61,014 nt of DNA, taken from the NCBI GenBank assembly GCA_022446825.1, contig JAKVBY010000007.1, forward strand, positions 26,571 through 87,584. Reading direction: 5' to 3'. This DNA comes from Pirellulaceae bacterium. Its GTDB lineage: Bacteria > Planctomycetota > Planctomycetia > Pirellulales > Pirellulaceae. Of this stretch, positions 4,260 through 50,889 are shown piece by piece. Both the position numbers and the translations under genes were made by a program. The notes under the pieces were generated by a model. It had not been told where the DNA came from. It did not search any database and worked only from the letters and a program-made list of their open reading frames with translations. The first letter of the stretch is position 1. Each line of letters begins with the position of its first letter.

Positions 4260-4454
4260 TCATGCCAGGTACAAAACGATCAAAAACACCGCCCCCGTGG
4301 TGCCACTTGGAAAGATTTCATAAACACTCAGTGTAGCAACCAGAGTGGAAACCAGGGTGCCAATCGCAACAACAACCGTCACGCCCACCTGTCCAGACGG
4401 GTCTTTATCCAAGTACTCATACGTTTCCGCACTGCCTCCCCTCTGCCGTGACAA
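4260..4454 (-). CDS. Small membrane protein, hypothetical (64 aa)
   Basis: A 64-residue frame with a short polar head (ETYEYLDKDPSGQ) and two hydrophobic segments (VGVTVVVAIGTLVSTLVATL and AVFLIVLYLA). The only starts in frame are TTG at 4454, which lies inside the T-tract of the upstream terminator, or GTG codons further in, so the true start is uncertain. It sits directly upstream of the methyltransferase gene in the same orientation. No family was recognised. Confidence 0.5.
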   Translation of the reverse strand: MSRQRGGSAETYEYLDKDPSGQVGVTVVVAIGTLVSTLVATLSVYEIFPSGTTGAVFLIVLYLA

Positions 4455-4489
4455 AAAAACGGCGAGCTGCGGATTTCGCAGCTCACCGT
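4453..4489 (-). terminator. Intrinsic terminator of the HMA lipoprotein gene
   Basis: On the minus strand an ACGG-x-GAGCTGCG / CGCAGCTC-x-CCGT hairpin (4489-4459; 12 base pairs with one mismatch and a 5-nt loop) is followed directly by seven T residues. This is a textbook Rho-independent terminator about 47 nt after the TAG stop at 4536. A dedicated terminator here supports the upstream two-TGA frame being a functional transcription unit. Confidence 0.85.
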
Positions 4490-4535
4490 CTGTGCTTCGT
4501 TAAAATTGCTCAATTTGTTTATTGAACAAACTTGT

Positions 4536-4874
4536 CTATTCAACAAGGGATGCATCAGGAAATTCAGCAGCAACAAGTGCTTCCACCGCTTTTGCGCTAT
4601 CGAAGTCTTCACCTTCAATCGCACAGGTTGCCGTTTTCTCGTCAGCATTAATCGTAATGTCCGTTACACCCGGTAACGGGGACAAAGCGTCCTTAGCACG
4701 CTTGCCTCACGAATTGCCTCAGACCATGCCAGGGAGTTTAAAACTCACCTGATTCACACTGGGCACTGCCGTATTCGTCGCCGTTGTCTCGTTGGTCGAA
4801 GGCGACGAACCGGAAGGACCAGAACAACCGACGGCAAAGACAGCCGCCAGCAAAACCAGTTCTCGCCGATTCAT
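4536..4874 (-). CDS. Candidate double-selenocysteine HMA-domain lipoprotein (in-frame TGA at codons 52 and 56)
   Basis: Read from ATG at 4874 to TAG at 4536 the frame has 113 codons, interrupted only by TGA at 4721-4719 and 4709-4707. The N-terminus is a lipoprotein signal (MNRRELVLLAAVFAVGCSG, lipobox AVGC), followed by a Ser/Thr-rich linker. The rest is an HMA-like metal-binding domain: VSFKLPGMV-X-GNS-X-GKRAKDALSPLPGVTDITI, then EKTATCAIEG and AKAVEALVAAEFPDASLVE. The two X positions are where HMA domains have their metal-ligand cysteines (GMxC...C, here with three spacer residues). Both are TGA while everything after them stays open and domain-like. Two hairpins follow at SECIS-like distances, and a strong terminator follows the gene. 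The best reading is UGA decoded as selenocysteine. The alternative is a pseudogene with two nonsense mutations, which would have to hit exactly both ligand codons. Confidence 0.72.
4661..4679 (-). promoter_or_regulatory. SECIS-like hairpin 2 for the second TGA
   Basis: In the mRNA sense CCGUUAC-CGGGU-GUAACGG forms a perfect 7-bp stem (4679-4673 with 4667-4661) with a G-rich 5-nt loop that begins 34 nt after the second TGA (4709-4707). It directly follows hairpin 1, so each TGA has its own downstream hairpin within the usual bacterial SECIS range. Since the region also encodes protein, two perfect consecutive hairpins are notable. Confidence 0.55.
4685..4703 (-). promoter_or_regulatory. SECIS-like hairpin 1 for the first TGA
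   Basis: In the mRNA sense the sequence AAGCGU-GCUAAGG-ACGCUU forms a perfect 6-bp stem (4703-4698 with 4690-4685) and a 7-nt loop that starts with G. The loop begins 21 nt after the first TGA (4721-4719). Bacterial SECIS elements lie inside the reading frame just after the UGA and have a G at the start of a small apical loop. The spacing resembles E. coli fdhF, where I count about 18 nt. Function is inferred from structure and position only. Confidence 0.6.
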
Positions 4875-5597
4875 AGGAACATCCTTTGGCTAGAAACAAA
4901 AAATGAAAAAGTTCGCGCAATCCTTTGAAGCTAATTCAAAAGACCGCACGTCACAAACACCCCGAGCAGTCCTTCCACAGAAAGGAAAAGCCTGCCATGA
5001 GGCTGCTTTATATTTTGGCTACAAATCACCCCGACGAAAAGAGCGAATTCCTCCACTTTGCCATAAATTGTAAAGCCGACCCTCGTCCGGGGGGCCAAAA
5101 AATCATTTCACTTGACCTACACACGGTCGGTAAGGCCGTGGAGGCAGAGCCTCAGAATGGCCAGACGGCAGAAGAGGTTTCCAAAACTGCCACCTCTCTG
5201 CTCGCCATCCCACGGCTTGGATTCATGCTGAGGCAGCGGCGGCCACCGCGTTCGAAATCGTCTGCGCGGTGTCGGATTGGGTCGCCTGCAGGCTTCTGAT
5301 TTCGGCTTTCGGAAGCGGGATGATCAAAACATCTCCGGGAAATGGCTGCGCAGAAAATTGCTGCTCTAGAAATTATTACCCCGGGAATCGTCAGTTCACC
5401 CGTCGGAAGGAGACACAAGGATATTCCTGCAAGGTGAACTTCCGCGCTCAGGGGAACGCATGGCGCACACAGGCGGTATGATTTCACAAGGACATGCCGG
5501 TCAGATAAACTACCCAAGTTGCTGGATCGTGCCGCGAGTACCTCAAACGAGACGCCACGCACTGCGACACACCAGACGTCCACCAAGAGCGATACCC
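4875..5597. other. Intergenic region, no convincing gene
   Basis: About 720 bp upstream of both the HMA lipoprotein gene (minus) and the membrane protein gene at 5598 (plus). Frames of up to about 144 codons exist on both strands but have biased, non-protein-like composition and no domain. It should contain the divergent promoters. No structured RNA was recognised. Confidence 0.4.
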
Positions 5598-11547: not shown

Positions 11548-12960
11548 TCAAATGTCATAGTACATGCAAAACTCATAAGGATGAGGACGAAGTCGCACCG
11601 CATCCACTTCATTTTGCATTTTATAGGCGATCCAGCCTTCGATGATGTCAGGCGTAAAGACTTCGCCGCGCAGCAAAAACTCGTGATCCGCCGCTAAGGC
11701 ATCAAGAGCTTGATCCAAGGAGGAAGGTGTCTTCTTGACAGACTGAGCTTCTTCCACGGGCAAATCATAAATATCTTTATCCAAGGGTTCCCCGGGACTG
11801 ATCTTATTCTGCACACCATCCATGGCAGCCATCAGAATCGCCGAGAAGGCTAAATATGGATTGCAACTTGGGTCCGGGCAGCGGAACTCGACCCGTTTCG
11901 CCTTGGGACTGGGACTGTACATCGGAATGCGACAGGCTGCCGAACGGTTGCGCACCGAATAAGCCAAATTCACCGGCGCTTCGTATCCCGGTACAAGCCT
12001 TTTGTAGCTGTTCGTTGTCGGGTTGGTGAACGCAAGTAAAGCCGGTGCGTGTCGCAAGATACCACCAATCGCGTGCAAACCAAGATCACTCAAACCCGCA
12101 TATTGACTTCCAGCAAACAATGGCTTTTCCTCTTTCCAAAAGGAAAAGTGTGTGTGCATACCGGAGCCGTTGTCCGCAAACAACGGCTTGGGCATGAAAG
12201 TCACTGTCTTCCCATGAGAATGTGCCACATTTTTGACAATGTATTTGTACATCATCAGTTGGTCCGACATCCTCAACAACTCGTTGAAATGCACGTCGAT
12301 TTCTGCTTGTCCGGCAGATCCCACTTCATGGTGTTGACATTCCACAGGGATGCCAACATTGATCATGATCTGCATCATCTCATTGCGCAGGTTCATGAGT
12401 TGATCCATCGGTGGCACAGGAAAGTACCCTTCCTTATGCCTCATCTTGTGACCCAAATTGGGGCTCTCTAATCGGCCCCGATTCCATTCGCCTTCGATGC
12501 TGTCAACGTGATAGTAACTTTCGTGCGCATTTTGGTCATAACGTACATCATCAAAGATAAAGAATTCAGGTTCGGGTCCGAAGAAAGCGGCATCGGCAAC
12601 GCCACTGGATTTAAGGTAGTTGACCGCCTTGCCAGCGACATTGCGTGGATCCTTTGTGTAATCTTCACGAGTTACTGGATCCTGAATATTACAGATCAAG
12701 CAAAGGGTAGGCAGTTCGGTAAATGGATCGACAAAGGCTGTCTCGGCTTGAGGGATAAGGAGCATGTCACTTTCATCGATAGGCTGCCAACCGCGCAGGC
12801 TGGAACCATCAAAACCCAAACCATCTTCAAAGACTTCCTCATCTAGACAGCTGACCGGAATGGTCGTGTGATGCCACAACCCCGGAAGATCAACAAAACG
12901 CAAATCGACTGCCTTAATATCTTTTTCACGACAAAGCGTTAGAATTTCGCGAGGAGTCAT
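11548..12960 (-). CDS. glnA: Glutamine synthetase type I
   Basis: A 470-residue GS-I that makes glutamine from glutamate, ammonia and ATP as a dodecamer in the cytoplasm. The N-terminal beta-grasp domain has GLGFDGSSLRGWQPIDESDM. The catalytic domain has FFGPEPEFFIFD, HHEVGSAGQAEIDV, the NGSGMHTHFSFWK flap region, NPTTNSYKRLVPGYEAPVN, and RVEFRCPDPSCNPYLAFSAI. The DIYDLPVEE motif matches the tyrosine adenylylation site of GS-I-beta enzymes, so regulation by GlnE-type adenylylation is plausible. It lies 137 bp downstream of the GSII gene in the same direction, with a terminator between them. Confidence 0.96.
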   Translation of the reverse strand: MTPREILTLCREKDIKAVDLRFVDLPGLWHHTTIPVSCLDEEVFEDGLGFDGSSLRGWQPIDESDMLLIPQAETAFVDPFTELPTLCLICNIQDPVTREDYTKDPRNVAGKAVNYLKSSGVADAAFFGPEPEFFIFDDVRYDQNAHESYYHVDSIEGEWNRGRLESPNLGHKMRHKEGYFPVPPMDQLMNLRNEMMQIMINVGIPVECQHHEVGSAGQAEIDVHFNELLRMSDQLMMYKYIVKNVAHSHGKTVTFMPKPLFADNGSGMHTHFSFWKEEKPLFAGSQYAGLSDLGLHAIGGILRHAPALLAFTNPTTNSYKRLVPGYEAPVNLAYSVRNRSAACRIPMYSPSPKAKRVEFRCPDPSCNPYLAFSAILMAAMDGVQNKISPGEPLDKDIYDLPVEEAQSVKKTPSSLDQALDALAADHEFLLRGEVFTPDIIEGWIAYKMQNEVDAVRLRPHPYEFCMYYDI

Positions 12961-13028
12961 GAGAGGCCTTCTTTAAATTCCACACTGAATACAAACTAGC
13001 AAGAGACAAAAACTTAATTCACAACATT

Positions 13029-13064
13029 AAAAAGCAGACCCTCAAGATAATCCTGAGGGCCTGC
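13029..13064 (-). terminator. Intrinsic terminator after the GSII gene
   Basis: On the minus strand GCAG-x-CCCTCA (13064 downwards) pairs with TGAGGG-x-CTGC, ten base pairs around a 9-nt loop with one internal mismatch. Five T residues follow (13033-13029). It lies between the GSII stop at 13098 and the GS-I start at 12960, so the two glutamine synthetase genes are likely separate transcription units or separated by attenuation. Confidence 0.85.
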
Positions 13065-13097
13065 AAGTGGTCTCAACTAATACAGCAAACAACGCGA

Positions 13098-14108
13098 CTA
13101 CGCTCCAGATTCGTTCACTGTCTTCACGATTGCCGCAGCGACCTTATAAGGATCCGCATTGGATGCTGGTCGACGATCTTCCAAGCGTCCCTTCCAGCCA
13201 TCATCAATCGTTCCTACCGGAATACGAATGGAAGCTCCGCGATCGGACACGCCATAACTGAACTTGTCGATCGATTGGGTTTCGTGTTCACCGGTCAACC
13301 GTTGATCATTGTCAGCGCCATAGACATCGATGTGTCGTGAAATCACCTTGCTGAACGATTCACAAATCTTTGTGAATACCTCCTCATTTCCAGCATCCCG
13401 CATGGCACCGTTAGAAAAATTAGCGTGCATGCCGGAACCATTCCAGTCGGTACGCCCCAGCGGTTTGGGATGCCATTCGATGGCGTATCCGTAGTTTTCA
13501 CCGCAGCGCTCCAGGATGTAACGGGCTACCCAAGTTTCATCACCGGCACGTTTTGCACCTTTGGCAAAGACTTGGAATTCCCATTGTCCAGCCGCCACTT
13601 CGGCATTAATCCCTTCCACATTAACTCCCGCATCGAGACAGGCATCCAAATGCTCATCGACACAATCTCGCCCATAAGCCTTGGCTGCACCGACGGAACA
13701 ATAGTAAGGTCCCTGGGGTCCTGGATAACCACCTGCAGGAAAGCCTGGAGGTAAGTTGGTCGTTGTATCCCAAAGAAAATATTCCTGCTCAAAGCCAAAC
13801 CAAAAATCTTCGTCGTCATCATCGATCGTGGCCCGCGCATTCGATGCGTGCGGCGTTCCATCCGCATTCAGCACCTCCGTCATCACCAAATAGCCATTTT
13901 TTCGGCAAGGATCAGGGAAAATCGCCACAGGTTTCAACAAACAGTCCGAATCATCACCCGTCGCTTGTTCTGTGGAACTCCCATCGAAGGACCACATTGG
14001 GCATTCCTCGAGGGTGCCGCCAAATTCATTGGCAATTCGCGTTTTTGAACGTAGGCTCTGTGTCGGTGTATAACCATCCAGCCATATGTACTCTAACTTG
14101 GCAACCAT
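13098..14108 (-). CDS. glnII: Glutamine synthetase type II (eukaryotic-type)
   Basis: A 336-residue GSII starting at ATG 14108 behind a GGAG ribosome binding site. Recognisable GSII signatures are LEYIWLDGYTPTQSLRSKTR, CPMWSFDGSSTEQATGDDSD, WFGFEQEYFLWD, PQGPYYCSVGAAKAYGRD, INAEVAAGQWEFQVF, NGSGMHANFS and the C-terminal DRRPASNADPYKVAAAI. GSII enzymes are decamers, not controlled by adenylylation, and are known from eukaryotes and from rhizobia, actinobacteria and other bacteria. Here it directly precedes a GS-I gene, giving two non-homologous-regulation ammonia assimilation enzymes side by side. Confidence 0.95.
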   Translation of the reverse strand: MVAKLEYIWLDGYTPTQSLRSKTRIANEFGGTLEECPMWSFDGSSTEQATGDDSDCLLKPVAIFPDPCRKNGYLVMTEVLNADGTPHASNARATIDDDDEDFWFGFEQEYFLWDTTTNLPPGFPAGGYPGPQGPYYCSVGAAKAYGRDCVDEHLDACLDAGVNVEGINAEVAAGQWEFQVFAKGAKRAGDETWVARYILERCGENYGYAIEWHPKPLGRTDWNGSGMHANFSNGAMRDAGNEEVFTKICESFSKVISRHIDVYGADNDQRLTGEHETQSIDKFSYGVSDRGASIRIPVGTIDDGWKGRLEDRRPASNADPYKVAAAIVKTVNESGA

Positions 14109-40648: not shown

Positions 40649-41242
40649 ATGACCAAACAAGTGGATCCTGCGTTGTTACTAATCCCGTCCAACACAAACT
40701 CCCCGAAATCGACTGTGAAAACACTTCTCACCACGGAGCAACTCCACCACGGCGTAGTGCAACTGGGACGCGAGATCAACGAGACCTATGGTGATCGCCC
40801 CTTGACTATTATTGGAGTCTTGACCGGGAGTGTCGTGGTGCTGGCAGATTTAATTCGCTTACTGGAGATGCCACTCCGCGTAGGAGTCGTCCAAGCCAGC
40901 AGTTATCGGGGAACCATCCGAGGTGATTTGGTCATCAATTCGGAACTGATGCCAGATATTCGGGGACGTGATGTCCTGTTGGTGGATGACATCTTTGACA
41001 CGGGGCGCACGCTCGTCGAGGTAATCGCCCAAATGCAAGCGTTGGGGCCAACCTCCCTGCGATCTGCAGTTTTATTACGTAAGAAAGAACGTCAGGAAGT
41101 CACCATGGATCCTGATTTTGTCGTTTTTGACATTCCAGATGAATTCGTGGTCGGCTACGGACTCGACTACAACGACGCCTACCGAAACCTGACTTACCTC
41201 GCCACGCTAGAACCGGACGACCTCACAGACGATTTCGCATGA
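40649..41242 (+). CDS. hpt: Hypoxanthine phosphoribosyltransferase
   Basis: A 197-residue type I PRTase that salvages hypoxanthine (and possibly guanine) with PRPP to the nucleotide. It has the PRPP-binding loop VLLVDDIFDTGRTLVEV, the upstream ITIIGVLTGSVVVLADLIRLL-like flap (seen as LTIIGVLTGSVVVLADL), and the C-terminal VVFDIPDEFVVGYGLDYNDAYRNL motif diagnostic of HPRT. The first ~20 residues are an extra N-terminal extension, so the true start may be later. Its TGA stop overlaps the ATG of the next gene (ATGA at 41239-41242), indicating translational coupling with a glycosyltransferase. Confidence 0.95.
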   Translation: MTKQVDPALLLIPSNTNSPKSTVKTLLTTEQLHHGVVQLGREINETYGDRPLTIIGVLTGSVVVLADLIRLLEMPLRVGVVQASSYRGTIRGDLVINSELMPDIRGRDVLLVDDIFDTGRTLVEVIAQMQALGPTSLRSAVLLRKKERQEVTMDPDFVVFDIPDEFVVGYGLDYNDAYRNLTYLATLEPDDLTDDFA

Positions 41243-49635: not shown

Positions 49636-50889
49636 ATGAAAAATGCGTTAGCCGTCGTCCTGGCGGGCGGCAAGGGCTCCCGACTGGAACCTTTAACTCG
49701 CGATCGGGCAAAACCGGCGGTCCCTTTCGGGGGTGGATATCGAATCGTCGATTTTGCGCTTTCGAACTGTCTCAATAGTGGCATCCGTCGGATGCTCGTG
49801 TTGACCCAATACAAAGCGTTGAGTCTCGACCGTCACATCAATATTGGTTGGCGTCCATTTTTCTGTCGAGAGCTGGGTGAATTCATCGACATTGTGCCGC
49901 CCCAGCAGCGAATTGACGAGCATTGGTATCAGGGAACCGCCGACGCGGTTTACCAAAACATCTATGAAATTGAGAAAGAACGGCCAAAATACGTCGTCAT
50001 CCTGGCTGGCGACCACATCTACAAAATGAATTACGCCAAAATGCTCGACTTCCACGAACAAATGGGAGCCGATCTAACCGTGGGTGCCCAGCGCGTTGAC
50101 CCGATCGCTGCCCAACAGTTCGGCGTGATGCAAGTTTTGGAAAATGACCGCATCGTTGGTTTCGAAGAAAAACCGACAGAGCCCAAGAGCATTCCCGGGG
50201 ACGAGGAACACTGCTTGGCCTCGATGGGAATTTATGTTTTCACCGCAAGATTTTTGTTCGAACAACTTTGTCAGGACGCCACCAACGATCGTAGCGATCA
50301 TGATTTCGGCCGCAACATCATTCCGTCGATCATCGACACCCACCGTGTCTTCGCATTTCCCTTCATGGATGAAAATGGCAAACAGGACGCGTATTGGCGC
50401 GACGTCGGTACCCTGGATGCCTATTACGAAGCCAACATGGATCTCATTTCCATCGATCCGCTCTTGAACATGTATGACTCCGAGTGGCCCGTGCGCACCC
50501 ATCAACCCAATCTACCGCCTCCGAAATTTGTCTTCGGTAGCCGTGAGGACGGAGACCGCAAAGGATTTGCCATGGATAGCATTATTTGCTCGGGAAGTGT
50601 CATTTCTGGTGGTCAGGTGGTCCGCAGTATTGTGAGTTCCAACGTCCGCGTGAATAGCTTTGCCACCGTCGAAGATTCGATTCTGTTTGAGGGTGTAGAC
50701 ATCGGCCGTCACGCCAAGATTCGCCGAGCGATTATCGATAAGGGTGTAAAAATTCCAGCGCATGCCGAAATCGGTATCGATACCGCCAAAGATCGCAGAC
50801 GCGGTCTACACGTTAGCGACGAACATGTCGTCGTGATCGCCAAGGGAGATCGTCTTGAACGCATCTTCGATTCCGAACAAGTTGCCTGA
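49636..50889 (+). CDS. glgC: Glucose-1-phosphate adenylyltransferase
   Basis: A 417-residue ADP-glucose pyrophosphorylase, the committed step of glycogen synthesis. It has the nucleotide-binding [76 protein letters not shown], and a C-terminal left-handed beta-helix ([40 protein letters not shown]-like repeats). The length is normal. No other glg genes lie in the window. Its TGA stop at 50887-50889 overlaps the next gene's possible TTG starts. Confidence 0.95.

Follow-up and report, generated by a model that had tools for sequence, protein, structure and literature searches.

The locus described here raises the question of whether a short gene with two in-frame TGA codons encodes a protein with selenocysteine (Sec, U) at both positions or has simply been broken. 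The gene lies on the minus strand of a 61,014-nucleotide stretch of a Pirellulaceae draft genome (153 contigs), the whole of which we call the window. A preliminary description, made from the letters alone, had proposed a double-Sec protein in which a lipobox signal and an HMA-like domain form one frame with TGA as codons 52 and 56, and translation together with a Pfam search bears out this layout. Read with TGA as U, the single frame gives MNRRELVLLAAVFAVGC, which holds the lipobox, then VSFKLPGMV-U52-GNS-U56-GKRAKDALSPLPGV, and finally LVE before a TAG stop, so that the product consists of a signal peptide, a linker and a domain carrying GMV-U-GNS-U-GKR. The frame is also open up to its TAG and followed by a terminator-like stem, as had been stated; a consensus scan of the window finds four such terminator sites against 1.0 expected. 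The features are collected in Table 1.

Table 1. Features of the candidate gene and its transcript, in window coordinates.
Feature	Coordinates	Strand	Basis or remark
Candidate double-Sec HMA lipoprotein gene	4536..4874	minus	112 codons plus TAG stop; translation with TGA = U
Signal peptide with lipobox, last residue Cys17	4824..4874	minus	sequence
HMA (ferredoxin-like) domain, residues 41-112	4539..4754	minus	Pfam, AlphaFold2, Foldseek
UGA1, codon 52, first metal-ligand site (putative Sec)	4719..4721	minus	sequence, homologues
UGA2, codon 56, second metal-ligand site (putative Sec)	4707..4709	minus	sequence, homologues
Hairpin A region	4680..4706	minus	core stem AAGCGU/ACGCUU within 4703-4685; sequence variable in the family
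Hairpin B, CCGUUAC-CGGGU-GUAACGG (proposed SelB-binding SECIS)	4661..4679	minus	covariation; synonymous-recoding test
Terminator-like stem with T run	4457..4491	minus	15 pairs; consensus scan

With Cys placed at both TGA positions, the window protein scores 32.1 bits against the Pfam HMA model PF00403, above the gathering score of 24.8, and with both sites blanked to X it reaches 22.1 bits (E 2e-4), just below that cut-off. An AlphaFold2 model built from 38 family members, again with Cys at both sites, has a mean pLDDT of 76.9; from residue 41 onward its ten-residue blocks average 85-95, and the block 51-60, in which both sites fall, averages 85. The order of secondary structure elements is E-H-E-E-H-E, and the best solved match found by Foldseek is MerP (1osd, E 1.2e-5). 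All 38 members scanned, their two sites set to Cys, are assigned to the HMA family at E up to 0.1. The canonical metal ligands of HMA domains form a CxxC motif, and the preliminary description had placed the two TGA codons exactly at these ligands. This holds insofar as homologues carry Cys there, whereas the spacing in the window protein is UxxxU, with three residues between the ligands in place of the canonical two; the same CxxxC spacing occurs in 23 homologues with Cys.

Of 241 genomes of the same family, 73 contain homologues, at 82 places in all, by a protein search that reads through every stop codon. The stops inside the matches are exclusively TGA (43 of the 82 places), with no TAA or TAG. 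We analysed 70 loci, namely the first 69 in the order of the search results and one (G053) taken out of order for its two TGA codons; among the 12 places left out, ten have no TGA and two have one. The ligand codons of the 70 loci read UxxxU in 20, UxxxC in 8, UxxC in 13, CxxxC in 23 and CxxC in 6, and TGA aligns with the Cys codons TGC or TGT at exactly the two sites. TGA stands at site 1 in 41 loci and at site 2 in 20, always together with TGA at site 1, while Cys occupies both sites in 29 and the combination of Cys first and Sec second occurs in 0 of 70. Elsewhere in the frames a single TGA is found among 7873 codons; it lies 44 codons upstream of site 1 in a frame resembling a P-type ATPase. 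The counted spans open at the likely start, or 45 codons ahead of site 1, and close 50 codons past site 2. As the loci are related, their counts are not independent events, but because TGA recurs at both sites among them, chance is excluded, and the earlier argument that two random nonsense mutations would hardly fall on both ligand codons is upheld. Of the 70 loci, 63 fit a loose lipobox pattern, and 40 of the 41 TGA-bearing ones are among them. The single-Sec UxxC genes form a sister group (L033, L044, L046, L050, L059, L061, L063, L066, L072, L074, L079, L080, L082).

The region beyond site 2 evolves as protein-coding sequence under constraint, with dN/dS of 0.02-0.30 in 35 of 36 pairs of close relatives and saturated dS in the remaining one. 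Purifying selection after site 2 is also seen among eight UxxxU genomes of one genus, where dS reaches up to 0.92. In a tree of the 70 domains, which rests on 69 columns and is poorly resolved, the best topology requires six changes at site 1 and seven at site 2, and its well-supported branches force fewer.

The components of Sec insertion are encoded in the same genome: selA (560 bits), selB directly upstream of it (371 bits), and selC, the tRNA-Sec (69 bits, anticodon TCA), with selD present as a domain of a fusion protein (272 bits, the sole selD match in the genome). The selD match, at L013:316-2544, is fused to a pyridine nucleotide-disulfide oxidoreductase; this fusion scores 440.6 bits against the NCBIfam model fusion_not_SelD, short of its cut-off of 700. 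TGA remains a stop codon in this genome, as the preliminary description had maintained, since the frames called hpt (40649-41242) and glgC (49636-50889) end in it. In one homologue, L094, a TGA-TAA pair terminates the frame right after the HMA domain, so that in this gene TGA seems to serve as a stop as well as for Sec. Across the family, selA (E below 1e-95) was found in 34 of 38 genomes with a TGA-bearing homologue versus 7 of 35 without one (p 1e-9); at E below 1e-70 the figures are 34 of 38 versus 9 of 35. The four TGA-bearing genomes in which no selA was found are all drafts, 80-92% complete. The findings named beforehand as counting against a double-Sec protein, a genome devoid of sel genes or homologues with unrelated residues at the two sites and further disabling mutations, were looked for and did not appear.

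A bacterial SECIS prediction over 4721-4650 had been suggested as a check. A conserved, covarying hairpin (hairpin B) does follow the two codons, its loop starting 46 nt after UGA1, farther away than the published model allows. We aligned 47 distinct gapless UxxxU and UxxxC sequences, 27 from the protein search and 20 from a pattern scan described below, leaving out L062 (a 3-nt insertion, although the hairpin folds there too), the chance matches L088 and L117, and 21 duplicates. Hairpin B is present in all 47 and lacking in the Cys homologues. In the alignment 96.9% of its cells are paired, 74 cells in four pairs are changed on both sides, and the covariation score is 0.653, values that were each reached by 0 of 500 shuffles; the counts of changed pairs and pair types do not stand out, since 357 and 159 of the 500 shuffles, respectively, were as high. 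When the partner strand is slid, pairing falls to 20-55% and the score, 0.65 in register, to no more than 0.13. The pattern scan fixed the inner pairs and the loop of hairpin B, not the pairs that covary. The loop reads CGGGU in 43 of the 47 sequences, CGGGC in two and CGUGU in two.

Hairpin B contains the codons of an LPGV box, which are nearly frozen in UxxxU and UxxxC genes. The Val codon of the box is GTA in 28 of 28 such genes versus 1 of 23 CxxxC genes, and GTA makes up 50 of the 275 Val codons elsewhere in the same U genes. On supported branches of the tree three independent pairs bear on the association of TGA with GTA, typically two in the same direction, none in the opposite direction and one without difference, too few for significance. 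Comparison with synonymous recodings gives a mean z of -3.0 for hairpin B (43-61 nt from UGA1; p 0.05 or less in 44 of 47) and of -2.73 for hairpin A (16-42 nt; 37 of 47), versus 0.1 and -0.4 respectively in the 23 CxxxC genes. For the window gene alone the values are z -3.28, p 0.01 (hairpin B) and z -2.26, p 0.029 (hairpin A). For hairpin A the 27-nt test is the apt one, as sliding 22-nt windows under-rate it in UxxxC genes, whose stems are longer; the entire stretch 4-63 beats recoding in only 20 of the 47 sequences. Among the seven single-Sec UxxxC genes of the protein search, hairpin B reaches p 0.05 in all seven and hairpin A in four, and because these genes keep hairpin B, it does not serve UGA2 alone. 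Taken alone, the window region is not significantly more stable than dinucleotide shuffles (z -0.83, -0.97 and, for 64 nt, -0.55; the first segment clips hairpin B), and an Rfam scan of 4300-5100 returned two sub-threshold matches, to a microRNA and a U1 model, and no SECIS.

The placement of hairpin B is fixed. Its loop starts 46 nt after UGA1 in 47 of 47 sequences and 34 nt after UGA2 in all 39 that have UGA2, the two codons in the window lying 12 nt apart. The bacterial SECIS consensus model in PMC13188914 places the loop 16-37 nt after the UGA. Under our own version of that model (perfect stems of -7.5 kcal/mol or less), UGA1 passes in 13 of 47 sequences and UGA2 in 16 of 39; in the window neither passes, at -6.0 and -7.4 kcal/mol. 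Hairpin B of the window has an energy of -7.4 kcal/mol over 19 nt or -8.9 kcal/mol over 21 nt, and hairpin A, 21 nt after UGA1, has -6.0 kcal/mol as a perfect stem and -10.1 as a region. In 11 of the 13 UxxC sisters, the hairpin that fits the rules best opens its loop 17-18 nt downstream of the lone UGA; eight of these reach -7.5 kcal/mol or less. In 6 of 14 distant members of the phylum that were folded (L156, L158, L159, L161, L164, L168), the loop lies 35 nt from UGA1 and 23 nt from UGA2, distances that the published model accepts for both codons. Two further groups were noticed. Genes of another planctomycete family (L148, L150, L151, L152, L154) have LPWV in place of LPGV, and all five, when folded, keep a hairpin at the place of hairpin B (CUCUACC/GGGUAGAG) with a different loop; L157 resembles them. 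Lipoprotein-like frames with MTUPGU (UxxU) keep the LPGV box (L133, L140, L141, L142, L143), and in L133 the loop again follows UGA2 by 34 nt, though UGA1 is 3 nt nearer.

We consider, with a probability of roughly 0.85 and judging from sequence comparison, that the gene encodes a membrane-anchored lipoprotein of HMA fold in which both metal-ligand residues would be Sec (UxxxU) and which would bind a soft metal; the earlier candidate double-Sec protein is thus strongly supported by the comparison. Sec is very probably inserted at both UGAs, which SelB and Sec-tRNA(Sec) would recode. Hairpin B is likely the SECIS of the UxxxU/UxxxC family, its CGGGU loop acting as the main recoding signal, and we think it fairly probable that this one hairpin serves both codons. 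Hairpin A may, more tentatively, act as a spacer: while folded it would shorten the path from UGA1 to hairpin B, and a ribosome advancing to UGA2 would melt it. The HMA fold, export, the lipid anchor and two selenolates together point to a soft-metal binder at the membrane, where the two selenolates of the exported protein would most likely hold a soft metal ion (Hg, Cu(I), Ag or Cd), in the manner of a membrane-tethered MerP or CopZ domain.

The use of the two selenols is where a competing account comes closest. We lean towards soft-metal binding, yet the protein might instead be a redox enzyme whose UxxxU motif cycles between diselenide and diselenol, for example to reduce a substrate such as a thiol or a metal complex; according to PMC13188914, redox activity is presumed for most uncharacterised selenoproteins. 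In its favour, a Pfam scan of ten window frames, which left two unassigned, recognised no metal-related gene. Inspection by eye of the largest clusters among 1070 frames neighbouring the loci gave no pointer to metal either, what is shared there reflecting synteny within genera, antisense frames or common families. The HMA family assignment of every scanned member and a top structural match to MerP, a mercury binder, speak against it, and we hold the redox enzyme to be the less likely of the two. Elsewhere in the window, two adjacent glutamine synthetase genes of unequal length lie at 11548-14108 on the minus strand.

Other accounts question the decoding itself. Double recoding should be inefficient, and TGA at site 2 is confined to genes with TGA at site 1 (20 of 41 versus 0 of 29 without), so one might suppose that only UGA1 is recoded efficiently and that UGA2 mostly terminates, yielding a short lipopeptide and the full-length product only at high selenium, as a regulatory switch. 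Strong purifying selection continues after site 2, however, also within the genus with eight UxxxU genomes, and the distance from UGA2 to hairpin B falls within the accepted range, which leaves this switch a small chance. That a near-cognate or reassigned tRNA reads UGA as another residue (Cys, Trp), with no selenium involved, would agree with the alignment of TGA to Cys codons but not with TGA as the stop of other window genes, the full sel gene set, the association of TGA homologues with selA or a downstream hairpin that accompanies TGA and is missing from the Cys homologues; we regard it as highly improbable. Two in-frame TGA codons in so short a gene of a fragmented draft could suggest a pseudogene or sequencing error, a reading refuted by recurrence, since many genomes have TGA at the same positions and their matches contain neither TAA nor TAG; dN/dS far below 1 and the covarying hairpin likewise oppose it, and what remains of its probability is negligible.

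Recognised relatives differ from the window protein in ligands, spacing or architecture. MerP and CopZ, both soft-metal carriers, share the HMA fold, and MerP is the top fold match, but their ligands are Cys in a CxxC motif, and the window protein scores 23.5 of 92.55 bits against the MerP model TIGR02052 and 24.9 of 85 bits against the CopZ model NF047957, below both cut-offs. The family NF041115 (UxxU_metal_bind), listed in Table 1 of PMC13188914 and traced to a 2007 study of an Olavius symbiont, is similar in having an HMA-like domain with Sec at both metal-ligand positions; it is a 74-position model with UxxU spacing, in contrast to the UxxxU, lipobox and linker found here, and its cut-off of 95 bits is reached neither by the window protein (24.7) nor by the best of 38 family members (L105, 75.2). 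NF045683, a MerT/CopZ fusion-like heavy metal transport selenoprotein, has an HMA-like part too, but its model spans 235 positions, and the window protein matches only the C-terminal part, with 25.6 of 375 bits. As for the RNA, hairpin B resembles the bacterial SECIS described in PMC13188914 in being a hairpin in the coding region after the UGA with a short loop and a G at position 2 followed by G; it differs in the distances of 46 and 34 nt and in the second hairpin between. One further group with UxxU, bearing MTUHTU after a hydrophobic N-terminal stretch (L138, L139, L144, L145; near 1357-1709), has a CGGGC/CGGGU-type box and a frame that differs from the one suggested by the RNA match; L138 also falls below the NF041115 cut-off.

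HMA-related selenoproteins as such are already known (UxxU, the MerT/CopZ fusion, a cation-transporting ATPase with UxxC, and a MerP entry; PMC13188914, PMC9312934, PMC2398784), including ones with two Sec. The UxxxU lipoprotein family itself appears to be new: it is absent from the 119-family catalogue in Table 1 of PMC13188914, and searches of open-licence papers showed no title or opening of an abstract that names a UxxxU HMA family, although the supplementary selenoprotein table for two planctomycetes in PMC4807772 may hold an earlier sighting. With selenium as the putative ligand at both positions of a metal site, this double-Sec family would allow selenolate metal chemistry to be tested against the natural UxxxC, UxxC and CxxxC relatives. 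The loop placements at 17-18 nt, at about 35/23 nt and at 46/34 nt from the UGAs form a natural series, material for learning how one hairpin can serve two UGAs. It is conceivable, at somewhat less than even odds, that a single SECIS, set beyond the accepted distance with a meltable spacer hairpin in between, programs two Sec codons and yields all-selenolate metal sites in exported lipoproteins of Planctomycetota and Myxococcota, neither this class of SECIS nor this class of metal carrier having been described before. Because ordinary gene finders end a frame at TGA, such genes would be expected to come out truncated or be missed.

The family extends beyond the Pirellulaceae. An RNA model matched, at E 0.001, 48 of 241 genomes of the same family and 29 of 392 of the phylum, its weaker matches including chance ones and UxxU relatives. 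The pattern scan, for both UGAs (or UGA then Cys) together with the box, covered 84,980 species and returned 43 loci, of which two, in Cohnella and Acidovorax, are chance matches. The other 41 are genuine by eye (36 UxxxU, 5 UxxxC), some of them on the same contigs as loci of the protein-search set, with 35 in Planctomycetota and six in two Kofleriaceae MAGs (Myxococcota). selA was present in four of four genomes with pattern-scan loci that were tested, two of them Kofleriaceae. Among these MAGs, NORP324 has four HMA selenoprotein loci (L084, L098, L105, L107) and bin10064 two (L087, L113), and such multiple loci per genome suggest expansion or transfer between phyla.
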